Assembly: GCF_003934165.1 (NCBI RefSeq)
Contig: NZ_RKST01000006.1
Span: 124,001 to 188,000 of the forward strand
Length of the DNA stretch: 64,000 bases
Reading direction: 5' to 3'
DNA from: Borborobacter arsenicus
GTDB taxonomy: Bacteria; Pseudomonadota; Alphaproteobacteria; Rhizobiales; Rhizobiaceae
Shown here: positions 26,085 through 33,469 of the stretch, one piece after another
How positions within the stretch are numbered: position 1 is the stretch's first letter
Layout: each line of letters begins with the position of its first letter
Notes under the pieces: model-generated
The model's database searches: none
Told to the model about the DNA's origin: nothing
What the model saw: the letters and a program-made list of their open reading frames with translations, nothing else
Position numbers and translations under genes: made by a program

Positions 26085-26119
26085 GGCCGGCCGCGACACT
26101 GCAAATTTTGCAACACTAT

Positions 26120-26155
26120 GGAACGCGGCTAACCCTGCGCCAGAACGGCTAAGCT
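26120..26155 (+). repeat. Degenerate terminal CRISPR repeat (upstream end)
   Basis: The last 15 nt (26141-26155, CAGAACGGCTAAGCT) match 13 of 15 bases at the 3' end of the array repeat, while the 5' half is not recognisable. It lies exactly one spacer length (30 nt) before the first perfect repeat, so the phase is right. It keeps the 3' part of the repeat, including the TGnTA-like element discussed under findings (here GGCTAAGCT). Confidence 0.7.
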
Positions 26156-26185
26156 CAACTGGGCCTACGCAAAGGGCAACCACTA

Positions 26186-28401
26186 GTTGCCGCTGGACCG
26201 CGTTTTCTGAACTGCTAAGCTGACCCAGCCTACTTCTGACCACTTTCGGGCGTTGCCGCTGGACCGCGTTTTCTGAACTGCTAAGCTCAAGCAGTTCTGG
26301 CAGCAGAGAATCAACGAGTTGCCGCTGGACCGCGTTTTCTGAACTGCTAAGCTGTGCCGAACCGCAATCATCGAACCGCTGGCGTTGCCGCTGGACCGCG
26401 TTTTCTGAACTGCTAAGCTAGCCGGGAAATAGACAACCGGTTGCCGACCTGTTGCCGCTGGACCGCGTTTTCTGAACTGCTAAGCTATTGGTGTAACGGT
26501 GAACAACTCGCCTTCAGGTTGCCGCTGGACCGCGTTTTCTGAACTGCTAAGCTTCCGTGTAGGCGTTGCCGTCTATGGCAACGGTTGCCGCTGGACCGCG
26601 TTTTCTGAACTGCTAAGCTCCGTTGCGTACGGCGTGCCGTGTCCCTCTTGTTGCCGCTGGACCGCGTTTTCTGAACTGCTAAGCTGCCCAATGAGGCAGT
26701 AAATAGATACGTACTGTTGCCGCTGGACCGCGTTTTCTGAACTGCTAAGCTCGCCTATGCCCTGACAGTCAATAGCAACGTGTTGCCGCTGGACCGCGTT
26801 TTCTGAACTGCTAAGCTCAGCCCGCCGGTACGGTTTATGGCACCGGCGTTGCCGCTGGACCGCGTTTTCTGAACTGCTAAGCTTCTGTTCATCAGTTCAC
26901 CTTTTGCGCTTCCGTTGCCGCTGGACCGCGTTTTCTGAACTGCTAAGCTAGGTCCTCTGCGCGCCTACCGTTCCTATCTGTTGCCGCTGGACCGCGTTTT
27001 CTGAACTGCTAAGCTGGGCGATCTGCTCTGCCGTGACGATGCCAGGTTGCCGCTGGACCGCGTTTTCTGAACTGCTAAGCTAGGTCGACGAGGCGGTCGT
27101 CTTCCGGCGCCGTTGCCGCTGGACCGCGTTTTCTGAACTGCTAAGCTCATCGCGCCGAGCGCATAGGTCCGCGGTTGGTTGCCGCTGGACCGCGTTTTCT
27201 GAACTGCTAAGCTAGGTCGACGAGGCGGTCGTCTTCCGGCGCCGTTGCCGCTGGACCGCGTTTTCTGAACTGCTAAGCTCATCGCGCCGAGCGCATAGGT
27301 CCGCAGTTGGTTGCCGCTGGACCGCGTTTTCTGAACTGCTAAGCTCAACGCCGACAAGCTGAAAGTCGCCGTCAAGTTGCCGCTGGACCGCGTTTTCTGA
27401 ACTGCTAAGCTGTTCCCGCAGAGACGCAAAAAGCCCGTCCAGTTGCCGCTGGACCGCGTTTTCTGAACTGCTAAGCTCAAGGCCGAATTGTGGAAGTATA
27501 TCGATCAGTTGCCGCTGGACCGCGTTTTCTGAACTGCTAAGCTGGCGTTTTCCTCATCTGACTTATTCGGATCGTTGCCGCTGGACCGCGTTTTCTGAAC
27601 TGCTAAGCTATGCCGCAAGGCTGACCGCTGGCCCGGATAGTTGCCGCTGGACCGCGTTTTCTGAACTGCTAAGCTTTCGATGAAATCTTGAACAAGGCAA
27701 AGAACGTTGCCGCTGGACCGCGTTTTCTGAACTGCTAAGCTGTCGCCGATCATCTGCCGTGCTTCGCGATAGTTGCCGCTGGACCGCGTTTTCTGAACTG
27801 CTAAGCTGCCGGCCGCGCGGGTACCGTCCGGCCGCAGTTGCCGCTGGACCGCGTTTTCTGAACTGCTAAGCTGCCATACTTCATCGGCATCAGATCGCCA
27901 AAGTTGCCGCTGGACCGCGTTTTCTGAACTGCTAAGCTGCGCGGCATGGGCGGTGTCCTGCAGTGGCTGGTTGCCGCTGGACCGCGTTTTCTGAACTGCT
28001 AAGCTAGGCTCGATCCGTGATGACTGGGCGCTTTCGTTGCCGCTGGACCGCGTTTTCTGAACTGCTAAGCTTCGCACGCGCCACGGGCGCCTCCTGGCTT
28101 TGTTGCCGCTGGACCGCGTTTTCTGAACTGCTAAGCTTCTGCGAAGCCTATGGTCAGCCGCTTCGCCGTTGCCGCTGGACCGCGTTTTCTGAACTGCTAA
28201 GCTAATTCACCGCCCAACGCGTGTTCAAGCGGTGTTGCCGCTGGACCGCGTTTTCTGAACTGCTAAGCTATTGTGCGGCACATCATGAAGGCCGCGCCTG
28301 TTGCCGCTGGACCGCGTTTTCTGAACTGCTAAGCTCGGCAAGGGTGTGCTGAAAGGCACCAATCGGTTGCCGCTGGACCGCGTTTTCTGAACTGCTAAGC
28401 T
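26186..28401 (+). CRISPR. Type II-C CRISPR array, 34 perfect repeats
   Basis: Thirty-four identical 36-nt repeats start with GTTGCCGCTGGACCGCG and end with TTTTCTGAACTGCTAAGCT. They are separated by 33 spacers, mostly 30 nt; 31 nt at 26420-26450, 26487-26517 and 27939-27969; 29 nt at 27808-27836. Two more 30-nt spacers (26156-26185 and 28402-28431) are bounded outside by partial repeats. The tracrRNA anti-repeat shows that crRNAs read on the plus strand, toward cas1 and opposite to cas1/cas9, as in Neisseria II-C loci. Spacers at 27082-27111 and 27214-27243 are identical, and the next pair differs by one base. No spacer obviously matched elsewhere in the window by eye. Confidence 0.99.
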
Positions 28402-29313
28402 GCTTGTTGCCGATGCCGATGAGCAGCTTGCGTTGCCGCTGGGCAGTGCGACCGAGACACTGCCTGTCTCGAAGCTGGTGGCAACCGAGTGGACGAAACG
28501 CTGGACCTGGACACCGAGCGGCGAGACGGTGCCGTCACCATTCTCCAGATCGAGCGTGGTGATTGCCGTCAGCTCACGCTTGGCCTCGCTCGTCACCTCG
28601 ACATTTCCTTGGGCGACCATTCCAAGCACGATGCGATCAACCAGCGGCCGGTAGGGCTCCATCAGGTCATCGGAAAGCGCAAAGGCATTGGCCCGGTTGG
28701 CATGGAACACACCGATGGTCGGATGCAAACCGGCCGCACAAACCGCCCGCGAGACTGCGGCCCGCAGCACGGTATAACCATAGTTCAAGAGCGCGTTGGC
28801 GCCGTCTGCGGTGCGATCACGCGAAAAATCCGGTCCGAACAAAGCCTTCCAATAGCGCCTTGCGGCCTGCGCCTCGATATTGTCGGGATCGCCCGAACGC
28901 ACCTTGCGAGCCAGGAGATCAAAAGCGCCAGCCTCCTTTCCCGCCAAGGACAGGACATGACCCTGCATGCGTATCTTGGCCGCCACGATCTGACGCCAGA
29001 TCTGCTTGCCGAGCGGGCGGGAAGCGCCAATCTGCGCACGCATGCGCGCGCCCTGCTGGTAATGGCCCTGCATGGGCCAGACACAGGCGACCGGTGCGTG
29101 ATTTGTGCCGCAGATCACGATCGGAACCGCACGCTCGGACAGGCGCAGCATGACCGAATTGGACCAGCTCGTGCCATGGGCATGCACGATCAGCGCGCTG
29201 ATATCATCAAGCGCGATACGCCCTTTTTCCTCGCCCGCCTCGCTTACGGTCAGAAAGCCGCGATGCGTAGCAAGGAAAAGCCCATCGGTTTCAATATCGA
29301 CCACACGCTCCAT
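28225..29313 (-). CDS. cas1: CRISPR integrase Cas1 (type II-C), reading frame fused into the array
   Basis: The metal-dependent integrase of spacer acquisition. From ATG 29313 (MERVVDIETDGLFLA) residues 1-290 are a full type II Cas1 core. Likely catalytic residues are E147 (NIEAQAARRYW), H204 (GVFHANRANAF) and the D215/D216-E219 group (LSDDLMEPYRP). From residue 291 the frame enters the truncated repeat and the array. It then reads through three repeats, giving three copies of SLAVQKTRSSGN, and stops in a spacer at 28225. The usual C-terminal tail and the following cas2 are missing. An 8-residue-longer start (29337) exists. It lies 57 nt after the cas9 stop. Confidence 0.93.
   Translation of the reverse strand: MERVVDIETDGLFLATHRGFLTVSEAGEEKGRIALDDISALIVHAHGTSWSNSVMLRLSERAVPIVICGTNHAPVACVWPMQGHYQQGARMRAQIGASRPLGKQIWRQIVAAKIRMQGHVLSLAGKEAGAFDLLARKVRSGDPDNIEAQAARRYWKALFGPDFSRDRTADGANALLNYGYTVLRAAVSRAVCAAGLHPTIGVFHANRANAFALSDDLMEPYRPLVDRIVLGMVAQGNVEVTSEAKRELTAITTLDLENGDGTVSPLGVQVQRFVHSVATSFETGSVSVALPSGNASCSSASATSSLAVQKTRSSGNRLVPFSTPLPSLAVQKTRSSGNRRGLHDVPHNSLAVQKTRSSGNTA
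28432..28442 (+). repeat. Truncated CRISPR repeat inside the 3' end of cas1
   Basis: GTTGCCGCTGG is an 11-nt exact copy of the start of the repeat, one spacer (30 nt) after the last full repeat; then the match stops. On the minus strand it encodes the PSGN of ...VALPSGN in cas1. The junction between array and cas1 therefore lies here. Confidence 0.8.
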
Positions 29314-29370
29314 AATTGTATGATAATATATATACAATCACTAGGTGCACAGAAGATATGTATTTTGTGG

Positions 29371-32300
29371 TTAATCTCCCAGCCTCGCCTTTCTCTCCAG
29401 CCGGGTCTCCCGGTCCTGCGGGCCGGGATCGAACACTCGCCCGGTCCCATCGACACGGAGCTGGCGCGCGCCGATCTCACGCAGCCCACTGGCCGCCTTC
29501 GAAAAATATTTGAACGGGTCGTCCTTATCGGCATCCCGTGCCTTCAATGCGCCGGCCTCGTTATGCCCGGCAAGATAAATCTGGCCGGCCGTACTGAATT
29601 TGACGACACGGCCGATCGTCAGTCCGTCCTTCGGGTGTTCATAGGCCACCATGTCGTTCTGCTTCAGGCTCAGGACCTTGCGTGCAGCCGGATGCGGCCT
29701 GGCGGCCTGAGGGTCCCGGTCGGGCCGGTGGGCGTCGAACATGGTGACGACATCGGCGACCCATTTGCCGTCCGGCAATTCCCACACGTCGTAGCGGAAA
29801 TTGGCGTCGCCCTTATAGCCCTTGTAGGCGCGGCCCTCTTTGTCGCGGATCGGGATGACTGACAGGGATTCGGTCAGCCGCACATGGCGGATCCGATGGA
29901 ATTTCTGGTCGGTCTTGCGAAAATAGTCGAGCGCCGCAGCAAACTCCCTGCCGGTCAGGCCGCTGGTGGCGGAATAGAGGCGGCGACGCAACTCATCATC
30001 GCGGATGTTAGGGATGTCCTTGTCGGTGAGCGACAGGAAGGGCTTGCGCCGTACCACGATGGTGTTTCCCCGCGCGTCACATTCGCCGGTGATGCCATAG
30101 GCGGTGTCGTTATGAAGCTGACCGGCGGTGCGCCCGTTTTCACCGGGCTTCGGCAGCGTGCCGTGGTCGGGCTTATGGCTGACGACGATCCGCTCGACCA
30201 TGGCCTTGAGGTCGTCGCGGAAAGTCGGCCACGGTTCGGGAATATCCGCAACCGTTTCCTCCAGCGCGATCGTCTCGCGCAGGGCCGCCTGGGTGGAGAT
30301 CTTTTGCAGCAGGCTGCGCGTGGTGACGCCGACCACGGCGGCGTCAATGGCATGATGGCGATGATCCTTGCGGTTCTTGGCCTGCGCGGTGCCAGCGAAA
30401 TTGTGATCCGGCAGGATCGAGTTCAGCCCCCAATTGCGCCGCAGCATCTCGGTCAGGCGGCCTGGAATGACGCGGACATGCCGGCGGCGCTTCAGCACAC
30501 CGTCGCCATCGGCTTCCTCGGCGGGATAAAGCGCGACAAGATATTCATGCGCCAGGCGTGACAGATACTGTGTGTCCGTCAATTGCCGGGCAAGAAAGTC
30601 CTCCTCGTCCTGATATTTTTCCATCGCGTCGCGGGCAAAGCGCCAACGCTTGTTACGCGGCAGGCGGTTGGCACGTTCCAGGATCGCGTCGTAATCGCTC
30701 GCCCATTCGGCCACCTCGGCCGGCGCGCGATCGCGTTTGACGCGATTGGCCTCGACCACGCAGAGGATGCGGTTTGCCTGGCTGTCATCGAGCGTGCGCG
30801 ACCAGGGCAGGATATGATCGACATCGACGGCGCCGGAAAACAGCATGCGGATGCCGATCGGCCTGCCGGTATAGATGCAGACGCGGTCCTCCGGATTGTC
30901 CGGGTTGAGTTCCTCCCACAGCTTCAGCAGGTTGCGATTGTGGCCATTGTCCTTCTGGCCGAGTTCGCGCAGCTTTTCAGAGCGCTTTGCGGCGGCACGC
31001 GTGTTTTCACCGATCTTGCGGTTGACTTCGGCTTTCTCTTTTTCGTTAAGCTTCAAGTCCCGGGCAAGCTCGATGGCGATCTGCTCCGGCTTGCCATATT
31101 GCCGGATGAGCCCGTTCACCACCTGTTGCATCTGGTTCAGCGCGATGTGCACCGTCGGGTTGGTGATGCGCCCCTTGGCGACGTCGTAAGGGTCGTCGGG
31201 CTCGCCGGTACCCGGCGGAATGCGACGCTCCAGAATTTCCTGGTATTTGGGCAGCCGATCAAGATCACCATCCGTGGGCGCCAGGGCATGATCGTAGCCT
31301 GCCCGCTTTGCCGCTTCCGCCTCGGGAATCACGTCGGCTTTCAGTTCCTCCAGCATCGACGATATAGCCGTCAGGCCCAGCCGGCCATAGCCGTCGGGTA
31401 GATGGATGCTCGCCACCACCTCGGCCGCATCGTCCGGAACACCGTAGGTTACGACCAGCCATTCATGCAGGGAAAGCGGATCTTCCTGCTCGCGCAGTTG
31501 ATCGATGACCGTCCATTGCTCGTCAGTGGAGAAGGTCGCCCAGCGATTGCCGAACGCCTTCTTGTCCGACAACGCCGCATTAACCTCGTCGCCGATCATG
31601 TCGACGCGATTGTCGGTTTCCTTGTTGAAGCGAAATTCCGAACCAGAAAGTTTGAGGGTCTTCCTGAGCGTTTTATAGGTTGTCTTCCGAATACCTTTAA
31701 GCTGCCGCACCAAGGTATCACGCTCATCGAGCGTCAGCTTGCGGTGGGACTGGTCGGGCAACACGATTTCCAGCTCATTGACCTCCTTGTAGAGCCGGAA
31801 TTGCTGGAACAGCGGATGCGCCTTGGGCAGACGGGTTTCAGCCGGATTGAAGCTGCATTTGCCGACAATGGCCGCCTTGAGGGGCCGCTGATAGAACATC
31901 ACCCTGAACAGATGGCTGCGACGATCCTCCGTCAGCACCTCAGGGTAATATGGCTGCTGCATCTCCCAGATCGCATTGAATTCCTCTTCAAGCAGTTTGC
32001 GGACGGGATAGAAATCATAGGTAGTCTTTGAGTTTCTCCCGTCATCGGCGCCCTCCTCGCCGAGCGCGCCGCTACGCACGCGCACCCATTCGCCTTTGGC
32101 GCGCCGCATGGCCAGGAACTGGCCGAGCGTGCGGGCGCCGGCCTCCTGCATTTTTTCATGCAGCCGATTGGCCCCGATCTCGATGGCGCCCTTCTCGTTG
32201 CTTTTGCGATCCGCCTTGCGGTTCGACTTGAAGCCGCGGCGCTGGTTGAGGTGAAACAGCGCCCGGCCGATATGATGCAGCGGCAGCTTTTCCGACAGCG

Positions 32301-32664
32301 CCCGCGCCCGCAGATTGTAGACATCGGCAAGCGCTTGCTCGACCGCCTCCCGCGGGCTGCGATCACTGGTTTCGGCCAGCAGTTCCTTGCGCGCCTGCTG
32401 GTCGGCCGGCATCAGGCCATATTCGGTCAGCGTGCGCAGAACCGCCTTGCGCCGGCGCTTGTAGCGGTCACGCCGGCGCGCCATGCCACGCGCCACGCGA
32501 CGCCCCTCGGCCAGCGAATTGCCGGATTTCGGCTCGCGGCCATCCGAGAAGATGCGTACAAGCATATGTTCTAAAGCGATGGGGCGCCCGTCAGTATCTA
32601 GCTTGAAAACACAGCCGCCTAGGCTGTTGGTTCCAATATCGAACGCAAATGCACGCTCTGTCAT
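29371..32664 (-). CDS. cas9: CRISPR-associated endonuclease Cas9 (type II-C)
   Basis: A 1097-aa RNA-guided DNA nuclease in the II-C size range. RuvC-I is AFAFDIGTNSLGG with D9. The Arg-rich bridge helix is at ~55-75. RuvC-II is QIAIELARD with E532. HNH is VDHILPWSRTLDDSQANRIL with H617 and N631. RuvC-III is HHAIDAA with H771 and D774. All catalytic positions are intact, so it should be an active nuclease. The C-terminal ~150 residues are the PAM-interacting region; the PAM is not predictable here. ATG 32664 is preferred to 32760 because GGGGG lies 5 nt upstream and the family begins here. A crRNA-like RNA downstream of its promoter may regulate it. Confidence 0.97.
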   Translation of the reverse strand: MTERAFAFDIGTNSLGGCVFKLDTDGRPIALEHMLVRIFSDGREPKSGNSLAEGRRVARGMARRRDRYKRRRKAVLRTLTEYGLMPADQQARKELLAETSDRSPREAVEQALADVYNLRARALSEKLPLHHIGRALFHLNQRRGFKSNRKADRKSNEKGAIEIGANRLHEKMQEAGARTLGQFLAMRRAKGEWVRVRSGALGEEGADDGRNSKTTYDFYPVRKLLEEEFNAIWEMQQPYYPEVLTEDRRSHLFRVMFYQRPLKAAIVGKCSFNPAETRLPKAHPLFQQFRLYKEVNELEIVLPDQSHRKLTLDERDTLVRQLKGIRKTTYKTLRKTLKLSGSEFRFNKETDNRVDMIGDEVNAALSDKKAFGNRWATFSTDEQWTVIDQLREQEDPLSLHEWLVVTYGVPDDAAEVVASIHLPDGYGRLGLTAISSMLEELKADVIPEAEAAKRAGYDHALAPTDGDLDRLPKYQEILERRIPPGTGEPDDPYDVAKGRITNPTVHIALNQMQQVVNGLIRQYGKPEQIAIELARDLKLNEKEKAEVNRKIGENTRAAAKRSEKLRELGQKDNGHNRNLLKLWEELNPDNPEDRVCIYTGRPIGIRMLFSGAVDVDHILPWSRTLDDSQANRILCVVEANRVKRDRAPAEVAEWASDYDAILERANRLPRNKRWRFARDAMEKYQDEEDFLARQLTDTQYLSRLAHEYLVALYPAEEADGDGVLKRRRHVRVIPGRLTEMLRRNWGLNSILPDHNFAGTAQAKNRKDHRHHAIDAAVVGVTTRSLLQKISTQAALRETIALEETVADIPEPWPTFRDDLKAMVERIVVSHKPDHGTLPKPGENGRTAGQLHNDTAYGITGECDARGNTIVVRRKPFLSLTDKDIPNIRDDELRRRLYSATSGLTGREFAAALDYFRKTDQKFHRIRHVRLTESLSVIPIRDKEGRAYKGYKGDANFRYDVWELPDGKWVADVVTMFDAHRPDRDPQAARPHPAARKVLSLKQNDMVAYEHPKDGLTIGRVVKFSTAGQIYLAGHNEAGALKARDADKDDPFKYFSKAASGLREIGARQLRVDGTGRVFDPGPQDRETRLERKARLGD

Positions 32665-32737
32665 GTCGCCCCCTACCTTCACAATTGTTCGTATAATGCT
32701 TACTTTTTGGGGAACGTCAAATGAAGCTAATATAGTA

Positions 32738-32754
32738 AATGCGCCACCTATATA
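32738..32754 (+). promoter_or_regulatory. Candidate self-protospacer in the cas9 promoter region
   Basis: AATGCGCCACCTATATA lies 74-90 nt upstream of the cas9 start. It matches 15 of 17 bases of AATGGGCCACCTATGTA (32951-32967), the 17 nt directly 5' of the degenerate repeat at 32968. Counting from the repeat, differences are at positions 3 (guide G opposite target-strand T, a wobble) and 13. Further 5' the match stops. The 3' flank, where a II-C PAM would lie, is AGGCATAT. Cas9 bound here would cover minus-strand TATATA/TATATT elements that are candidate -10 boxes of cas9. Confidence 0.7.
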
Positions 32755-32775
32755 AGGCATATGAGTTTATGTAAT

Positions 32776-32806
32776 TTGACAGGCGAAGCGACTCAGTAAA
32801 TATTAT
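32776..32806 (+). promoter_or_regulatory. Candidate plus-strand promoter for the RNA between cas9 and tracrRNA
   Basis: TTGACA (32776-32781) is followed by TATTAT (32801-32806) after 19 nt, with an alternative TAAATA after 15 nt. Spacing is not ideal. Transcription would start near 32812, divergent from cas9, and end at the hairpin at 33000-33037, giving an RNA of about 225 nt that contains the degenerate repeat. Confidence 0.35.
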
Positions 32807-32967
32807 CTACTATTGTGGGTGTCGTGCCGACTCTCCAGCGTCCACAGTTGAATGTGTCGACACGCCGTAACTCATAGTTACAACCCACAGAAGCGCTGCC
32901 TCCAACGCAGCGGAAGGCTACTTGAGGTGCATTCATGTCAGATTGACCAGAATGGGCCACCTATGTA

Positions 32968-33003
32968 GTTACTGTCAGACGGCGTCTTCTGATCTGCTGG
33001 GCG
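32968..33003 (+). repeat. Solitary degenerate CRISPR repeat between cas9 and tracrRNA
   Basis: It aligns without gaps to the array repeat at 25 of 36 positions, in the same orientation. The best block is GCGTCTTCTGATCTGCTGGGC against GCGTTTTCTGAACTGCTAAGC (17/21). It starts with GTT like the true repeat. Several departures from the array repeat (GTTA at the 5' end, CAGAC in place of TGGAC) restore complementarity to the tracrRNA, where the counterparts are TTAAC and GTCTG. That suggests selection for tracrRNA pairing rather than simple decay. Confidence 0.75.
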
Positions 33004-33037
33004 GATTCCTCCACAAGAGGAATCCGCCTCTGTTTTT
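33000..33037 (+). terminator. Rho-independent terminator after the degenerate repeat
   Basis: GGCGGATTCCTC (33000-33011) and GAGGAATCCGCC (33017-33028) form a perfect 12-bp stem with a CACAA loop, followed by TCTGTTTTT. The left arm begins inside the last four bases of the degenerate repeat. No protein gene on the plus strand ends here, so it must end a non-coding RNA. Confidence 0.85.
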
Positions 33038-33099
33038 ATAGTCTCTCTCCTATTAAGTATTTACGCTTTGATTTTTGATTGTTGGATGATATGTACTAA

Positions 33100-33188
33100 T
33101 TACTGCCTAGCAGTTCAGAAAACGCGGTCTGGCTGTTAACAAGCTTCGACAGCACCAAATAAGGCCCTCGCCACGGCGGGGGCTTTTT
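33100..33188 (+). ncRNA. tracrRNA of the type II-C system
   Basis: TAGCAGTTCAGAAAACGCGG (33108-33127), continuing with TC, is a 22-nt perfect reverse complement of the array repeat. A partly complementary stretch (TGGCTGTTAAC) follows. A small hairpin GCTGT/ACAGC lies at 33132-33153. The terminator stem GCCCTCG/CGGGGGC (33164-33183) is followed by TTTTT. The order anti-repeat, tail hairpin, terminator is that of a tracrRNA on the plus strand. The 5' end is approximate; the sequence just upstream is AT-rich, but I see no strong -10/-35 pair. Confidence 0.92.
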
Positions 33189-33469
33189 GGTTTTGCGGAG
33201 AACCCTTGGGGGGACGCCTCGTGCCTGTTTTGCTCAGGCAAAATTGTCGGCAATGTATGCGGAACGACATCATTTCGACGATGTTTGCGCCGGATGCCGG
33301 CATCGGCATGGCCGGCTCCGGGACCATGCCTGTCCTGTCTTCATCGCCGCAGGATTGCTGCCTGAGCCCAAGCAGATCGGTGTCGCTCGACACCCTGTCG
33401 CTCGCAGCCGTGATCTTCAATAAAGGGAGATAAGGGTGCGAGCCTGAATGAATCAGGCTCTGCGGATGA
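33189..33469. other. Intergenic stretch between tracrRNA and tRNA-Leu
   Basis: About 280 nt with no convincing gene. Short open frames overlap each other and lack ribosome-binding sites. GAGCCTGAATGAATCAGGCTC (an AGCCTGA/TCAGGCT hairpin at about 33441-33459) is a possible structure just downstream of the tRNA gene; it lacks a strong T-run. Confidence 0.5.

Follow-up and report, generated by a model that had tools for sequence, protein, structure and literature searches.

The natural single-guide RNA tracr-L of the S. pyogenes II-A system (PMC8616872, PMC11417352) holds Cas9 near the cas promoter through a match of about 11 nt beside an NGG, which permits binding but not cutting and feeds back on cas expression (PMC8616872). 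According to the cited section of a 2021 review, tracr-L is not found in other subtypes (PMC8616872). Solitary crRNA-like RNAs with partial complementarity to a cas promoter, termed CreR, autorepress I-B, I-E and V-A systems; reviews from 2025 and 2026 assign CreR to type I and V-A, and in the portions cited here name no type II CreR (PMC12737573, PMC13131331). The scaRNA of F. novicida (II-B) is a non-array crRNA-like RNA that pairs with tracrRNA, binds DNA through a partial guide and represses other genes (PMC13431127, PMC8616872). In N. meningitidis, a II-C scaRNA of non-array origin is bound by Cas9 and acts on efeO mRNA; the 2026 study found no sequence-guided target in the 5' UTRs of the regulated genes, and its cited part reports no autoregulatory guide (PMC13431127). 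Extraneous crRNAs of II-C arrays originate from the extra repeat of the array, an unusual repeat that no regular spacer accompanies (PMC12080349, in the part cited). Pairs of scaRNA and tracrRNA have been predicted for some II-C systems by Guzina et al. (2018), who, in the passage cited, regard target prediction as unsolved (PMC6199352). Structured RNAs of CRISPR operons were surveyed in 2022; the survey provides a II-C tracrRNA model and reports no comparable element in its cited sections (PMC9067536). The earlier note on the locus considered here knew of no described II-C case, and the open-access literature searched yielded none of guide-based Cas9 autoregulation in this subtype; the coverage excludes preprints and subscription papers, and the novelty is therefore provisional.

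The window, a 64-kb stretch (64,000 nucleotides) of the Borborobacter arsenicus genome, contains a type II cas9 gene on the minus strand (29371..32664, 1097 aa; TIGR01865, 579.9 bits), a type II cas1 on the same strand (28428..29334, TIGR03639) and a plus-strand CRISPR array of 34 identical 36-nt repeats and 33 spacers (26186..28401). Upstream of cas9, a plus-strand tracrRNA is identified by its anti-repeat and terminator at approximately 33100..33186, with putative ends; it consists of the anti-repeat (33104-33139), the nexus GTTAACAAG from 33135 and a terminator reaching 33186. For cas9 we infer a start at ATG 32664, since most relatives align by tblastn from residues 1-9 onward when residues are counted from that codon. 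The frame stays open beyond 32664 up to another ATG at 32760, which leaves 32664 unproven as the true start. Subtype II-C is recognized by the gene set cas9-cas1-cas2 with csn2 and cas4 absent, and the genome displays cas9 and the type II cas1. A TIGR01573 profile search detected no cas2 in the assembly (98.5% complete), and cas2 was detected in 6/7 relatives tested. Judging by these searches, cas2 seems to have been lost in this genome, and spacer uptake may be dead with interference retained. The cas1 ORF extends into the array (region 28225-29337). Within the array, a 132-nt unit is duplicated (27082-27309), so that two spacers occur twice, one pair being identical and the other differing by 1 base, and the outer flank (26102-26185) carries an extra repeat-like remnant, GAACGGCTAAGCT, ahead of the first full repeat.

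A degenerate CRISPR repeat lies between cas9 and the tracrRNA (32968..33003, plus strand), about 4.6 kb away from the array and on the far side of cas9. With 25/36 positions identical to the array repeat, it is the top plus-strand match to that repeat outside the array in the 64-kb window; the other matches are the tracrRNA anti-repeat at 33104 on the minus strand (28/36) and a next one at 22/36. Its predicted pairing with the anti-repeat is close in energy to that of the array repeat (-50.4 versus -54.7 kcal/mol). Over the first 30 nt alone, the degenerate repeat pairs with tracrRNA at -34.9, compared with shuffled sequences at -14.8 (sd 3.2) and the array repeat at -46.1. The 3' end of the repeat overlaps an intrinsic terminator (32999..33036, plus strand), made up of 32999-33029 and a T-run, at -23.9 kcal/mol. 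The top promoter-like site in 32500-33300 (10/12) is TTGACA at 32776, spaced by 17 nt from AATATT, and constitutes a candidate promoter of the element by consensus match only (32776..32804, plus strand). The transcript predicted from it (32811..33036, plus strand; the start is set by the putative promoter) would be well structured, with a z of -4.4. These results bear out the earlier description of a lone repeat followed directly by a strong terminator, with a TTGACA close by and no protein gene: the interval 32761-33135 is overlapped by no ORF of at least 60 aa. An Rfam search returned nothing over the element at E 1. We also considered a guide-masking hairpin, since the minimum free energy fold hides part of the guide, but the local hairpin was matched by 56/300 shuffles and the candidate was dropped.

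The 17 nt immediately before the repeat form the guide segment (32951..32967, plus strand) and agree at 15/17 positions with a target in the cas9 upstream region (32738..32754, plus strand). The bases after the target read AGGCATAT and therefore provide an NGG PAM, with AGG at 32755..32757 of the plus strand. The details of the match claimed in the earlier note are all found in the sequence: it stops exactly at the guide/repeat junction, within the last 12 nt of the guide only position 3 differs from the target, a G/A difference that amounts to an rG:dT wobble, and position 13 is mismatched. The placement of the target 74-90 nt upstream of cas9 is correct for ATG 32664 and fails if translation starts at ATG 32760, in which case the target would fall within the coding frame. 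Shuffled guides reach 11/12 in the region in 44/50,000 cases, 3 of them beside NGG, and reach 15/17 in 1/50,000, with none beside NGG. The 12-nt seed with its NGG, GCCACCTATRTANGG, has 1 exact genomic site—the one upstream of cas9—in the 5.4 Mb assembly (98.5% complete, 107 contigs), and 2 further sites at one mismatch. A candidate cas9 promoter, TTGACG-16-CATTAT, is found at 32693..32720 on the minus strand, also by consensus match only. The two candidate promoters diverge, and the target with its PAM occupies the space between their -35 boxes, 17 nt from that of cas9 and 18 nt from that of the element.

We consider it very probable that the element is a gene for a solitary mini-crRNA that aims Cas9 at the cas9 upstream region, with autorepression by a partial guide. 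The mini-crRNA would be transcribed from the promoter near 32776 to the terminator at 32999-33036, pair with the tracrRNA through its degenerate repeat and load Cas9. The guide would bring Cas9 to 32738-32754, beside AGG and upstream of cas9, where the protein is expected to bind without cutting, obstruct the promoter region and lower cas9 transcription. Binding without cutting is suggested by the extent of the pairing, which comprises the 12-nt seed with one wobble and four matches past a mismatch; the mismatch at position 13 may, as the earlier note held, prevent cutting. Repression of the element's own promoter, which the earlier note raised as a possibility, may occur as well. The outcome would be a negative feedback, in which a rise of free Cas9 strengthens the repression and array crRNAs or an inhibitor occupying Cas9 relieve it.

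The proposed arrangement would share with tracr-L the binding of Cas9 near the cas promoter via about 11 nt beside NGG, the absence of cutting and the feedback on cas. It differs in its probable subtype, II-C, with a Cas9 of 1097 aa, and in having the guide on a putative separate RNA, which would end at its own terminator and would need to pair in trans with the tracrRNA. CreR is likewise a solitary crRNA-like RNA partially complementary to a cas promoter and autorepressing, as predicted here, whereas the effector in the window is the type II Cas9, a tracrRNA is needed and the PAM is a 3' NGG (PMC12737573, PMC13131331, in the parts cited). The predicted pairing with tracrRNA, the partial guide and the predicted DNA binding recall the scaRNA of F. 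novicida, but in place of other genes the guide has its one exact seed and PAM site upstream of cas9, weaker sites being possible. With the N. meningitidis scaRNA the element would share the subtype and the binding of a non-array RNA by Cas9, but not the mRNA target. An odd repeat lacking a normal spacer partner also underlies the extraneous crRNA; there, however, it is part of the array, whereas here it stands beyond cas9 with a terminator of its own.

To search for relatives of the element, we collected Cas9 loci from 101, 394, 397 and 385 genomes at the relative, family, order and class level, respectively, in overlapping sets; four named loci were added and 86 loci were oriented, the window and one duplicate included (loci other than the window are denoted by L numbers). 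The same device recurs in relatives with other guide and target words, as seen by eye and then by script. In a swap test, guides were paired with the cas9 regions of their own and of other loci. A repeat profile and a filter picked 16 loci with a repeat-like element for it, leaving out L062 (array upstream), L079 (from the genome of L023), L077 (first hit a mis-scored anti-repeat) and elements at least 420 nt from cas9. A seed match of at least 10/12 beside NGG is present in the own cas9 region for 8/16 elements, compared with 2/240 swapped pairings, none of which reaches 11. Mean matches of the 12-nt seed with NGG amount to 8.81 in own pairs and 6.51 in swapped pairs, and the observed sum is attained by 0/20,000 permutations, whether the PAM rule is applied or not; this rule and the scoring were fixed only after the first examples had been seen. 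That guide and cas9 upstream region should change together in relatives had been named beforehand as a check, and it was passed both in the swap test and in the comparison of L064 with L065.

We also scanned 82 loci, with L062, L079, L084 and L088 left out, for a repeat-like start (at least 9/14) together with a seed match beside NGG, using dinucleotide shuffles as the null. Ten loci outscore every one of the 820 shuffles; at the 0.5% level the number rises to 16, with 0.4 expected. L073, L093 and L114 exceed this level and were not accepted as members, so the shuffle null is somewhat lenient. The window is missing among the hits because its repeat start is 8/14, under the filter; the filter was lowered from 9/14 to 8/14 after this value had become apparent, and 1/500 dinucleotide shuffles then equals the window score. 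In 15 loci the element has an NGG-flanked target: the window, L021, L023, L049, L052, L054, L060, L061, L064, L065, L068, L077, L078, L081 and L086, the weakest being L060 (9/11). Among the 16 swap-test elements, those of L053, L063, L082, L089 and L109 are without a convincing NGG target, and those of L069 (9/11) and L071 (11/11) match their own cas9 region without NGG. L071 and L069 belong to more distant Cas9 clades, and their Cas9 may have another PAM. The clear repeat-like element of L053 sits approximately 116 nt upstream of cas9 and faces the gene from the opposite strand. No element was found in L048, the sole cas9-bearing congener in a set of 4 genomes from the genus, and additional genomes of three genera gave no new loci. 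As a held-out set we took nine cas9 loci carried on plasmids of more distant relatives, out of 44 records, 37 of them from one species represented by two; 0/9 scored above all their 200 shuffles. The best of them, L177, is equalled by 6/200 shuffles, and the tracrRNA nexus lies within 200 nt of cas9 in 6/9.

The joint change of guide and target is most directly visible between L064 and L065, which belong to one genus and have Cas9 proteins 83% identical: the repeat-like part and the tracrRNA align closely, while the guide and the target are both swapped for a new matching pair. Between the window and L021, the locus of Aquamicrobium sp. LC103 (Cas9 77% identical), the intergenic region barely aligns outside the tracrRNA, and each guide fits its own target. 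The targets, each with its flank, read CCCCCGATATA and TGGAAATT in L021, ATTCGCATA and GGGAAATT in L049, GTGGCGATGTA and AGGAATAT in L061, AAAGTGGTTTTGTA and GGGAATAA in L064, and AAGCGAGACTA and GGGAATTT in L068. Of 21 elements, many of which were chosen for a match, 18 pair with their target over 10 nt or more from the PAM without interruption when wobbles are allowed; 17 of these 18 pair over 10-14 nt and 8 over exactly 11. The pairing reaches 18 nt in L066 and falls below 10 in L060, L063 and L109. That pairing in relatives mostly ends after 10-14 nt is better support for non-cutting binding than the mismatch at position 13. L066 has the guide and target words of its sister L064 with a GGT flank where L064 has GGG, and is perhaps a decaying copy of the device; its cas9 frame spans only 734 aa.

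NGG flanks the target in 13/16 elements with at least 10/11 matches (the exceptions are L066, L071 and L109), a count that is partly circular because L078, L081 and L023 came from the scan requiring NGG and L064, L066 and L077 were first noticed by eye. Nine elements that were picked up purely for their repeat-likeness have 10/11 matches or more, and NGG follows the target in 7 of them. A measured need for NGG is reported, in the cited part of the source, for EHCas9, a II-C protein with its closest homologues in Alphaproteobacteria, which also prefers T at PAM position 5 (PMC10281378); unlike in EHCas9, position 5 of the targets here is mostly A. Array spacers contribute little to the question: those of the window have only weak matches among phages and plasmids, none usable for the PAM, those of the L055 and L051 arrays gave nothing useful for it, and of two pattern searches of viral contigs one returned 10 contigs, none related over the whole spacer (20-22/30), and the other 0. 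If the reading of the element is true, autoregulatory targets offer a sequence-only route to a PAM, which is NGG here. The spacer at 28138-28167 has a 93% match on a Rhizobium lusitanum plasmid, in a frame that we take to resemble a Mu-like portal gene.

The element occurs in more than one layout. A terminator follows it in the window, L052 and L063, and weaker ones are present in L061 and L060; going by these terminators, the element of these loci would yield a separate mini-crRNA. L049 has a convergent tracrRNA. For L021, L064-L066, L068, L077, L078 and L081, no good terminator comes ahead of the one belonging to the tracrRNA; L064, L065, L068 and L077 have none between element and tracrRNA. 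A long transcript from such a locus would therefore amount to a natural single-guide RNA, and L064-type loci, in which the tracrRNA is preceded by the guide and the repeat-like part, thereby resemble tracr-L; in L064 the guide, the repeat-like part and the tracrRNA fold as one hairpin with a z of -3.8. The type II-C autoregulatory guide proposed in the earlier note is supported by relatives as a reading, and what the note treated as one locus is a recurrent device with two layouts. More tentatively, and at somewhat less than even chances, we propose that alphaproteobacterial II-C systems possess a recurrent, re-aimable autoregulator, in which a trans mini-crRNA and a one-piece long tracrRNA are interchangeable. 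In the two-piece layout the mini-crRNA and the array crRNAs would compete for the same tracrRNA and Cas9, and through that competition cas9 expression would sense crRNA load and anti-CRISPR attack. The guide/target pair would be redrawn repeatedly.

Other explanations of the guide/target match have to be weighed against autorepression by a mini-crRNA. The guide part might pair with the cas9 mRNA leader as an antisense RNA, whether Cas9 is involved or not: plus-strand targets are antisense to that leader and make up 12/15 loci with an NGG-flanked target, and N. meningitidis offers a described II-C non-array RNA acting on mRNA (PMC13431127, in the part cited). Yet the targets of L052, L060 and L061 are on the other strand, where the RNA cannot pair with the mRNA, an NGG flank and a fixed junction are required for DNA and not for RNA, and the window target may sit upstream of the mRNA start; we regard antisense regulation as quite unlikely. 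Binding of one transcription factor to two similar stretches, serving both units with the guide match accidental, would look alike in a single genome, where two near-identical 17-mers by divergent promoters are all that is seen. Across the 15 loci, however, one copy abuts a crRNA-like repeat and the other abuts NGG, the word varies by locus, and the pairing mostly stops near 11 nt on either strand, which makes a shared protein operator extremely improbable.

The 11 differences from the array repeat and the patchy presence of the element would suit a functionless relic, a stray repeat unit decaying next to a self-matching spacer. Such decay is hard to reconcile with a predicted tracrRNA pairing near that of the array repeat, with the strong terminator and with guide-target complementarity maintained through sequence turnover in relatives, and we give a relic only a very small chance. 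The position of the target matters for the sign of the regulation. In the window, the target and PAM between both -35 boxes could mean that guided Cas9 activates or insulates the divergent promoters, for instance by protecting that of the mini-crRNA, and blocking by Cas9 bound 17 nt upstream of the cas9 -35 box would act less obviously than in relatives. By consensus promoter matches only, the target lies at or just past the predicted cas9 start in L064, L065, L066 and L061; in L064, L065 and L061 Cas9 bound there should block, and the autoregulation described for Cas9 and CreR is repressive in the cited parts of PMC8616872, PMC12737573 and PMC13131331. We thus find activation or insulation hardly credible, and prefer autorepression by the mini-crRNA.

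If autorepression is true, RNA-guided self-control of CRISPR effectors extends to subtype II-C, with both known layouts together, and II-C systems too could respond to anti-CRISPR proteins with more Cas9. That guide and target have been exchanged together repeatedly would then be natural evidence that Cas9 binding through approximately 11 paired nt is selected for regulation.

The occurrence of the element varies with the spacing between the cas9 start and the tracrRNA nexus. Counting 17 loci with an element (a curated list with L063 and L066 included, and L062, L079 and L084 left out), it is present in 16/26 loci at a distance of 260-600 nt, 1/10 at 200-260 nt and 0/33 below 200 nt, and in 0/14 loci where the nexus was not found or is further off. 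A Cas9 tree of 80 rows, built without L066, L093 and L115 (short) and without L079, L084 and L085 (alignment beginning only after residue 20), places 16/17 element loci within one 42-row part, the fork of which is unsupported; the remaining locus is L066, too short for the tree. Among the loci examined, no signal was found outside that one part. Repeat-likeness is also a property of some promoters: in L068, L082 and L086 the tracrRNA promoter resembles a degenerate repeat (TTGACC...TATCCT or similar), so repeat-like hits adjoining a tracrRNA can be promoters. Such tracrRNA promoters fit repeats that carry promoters.
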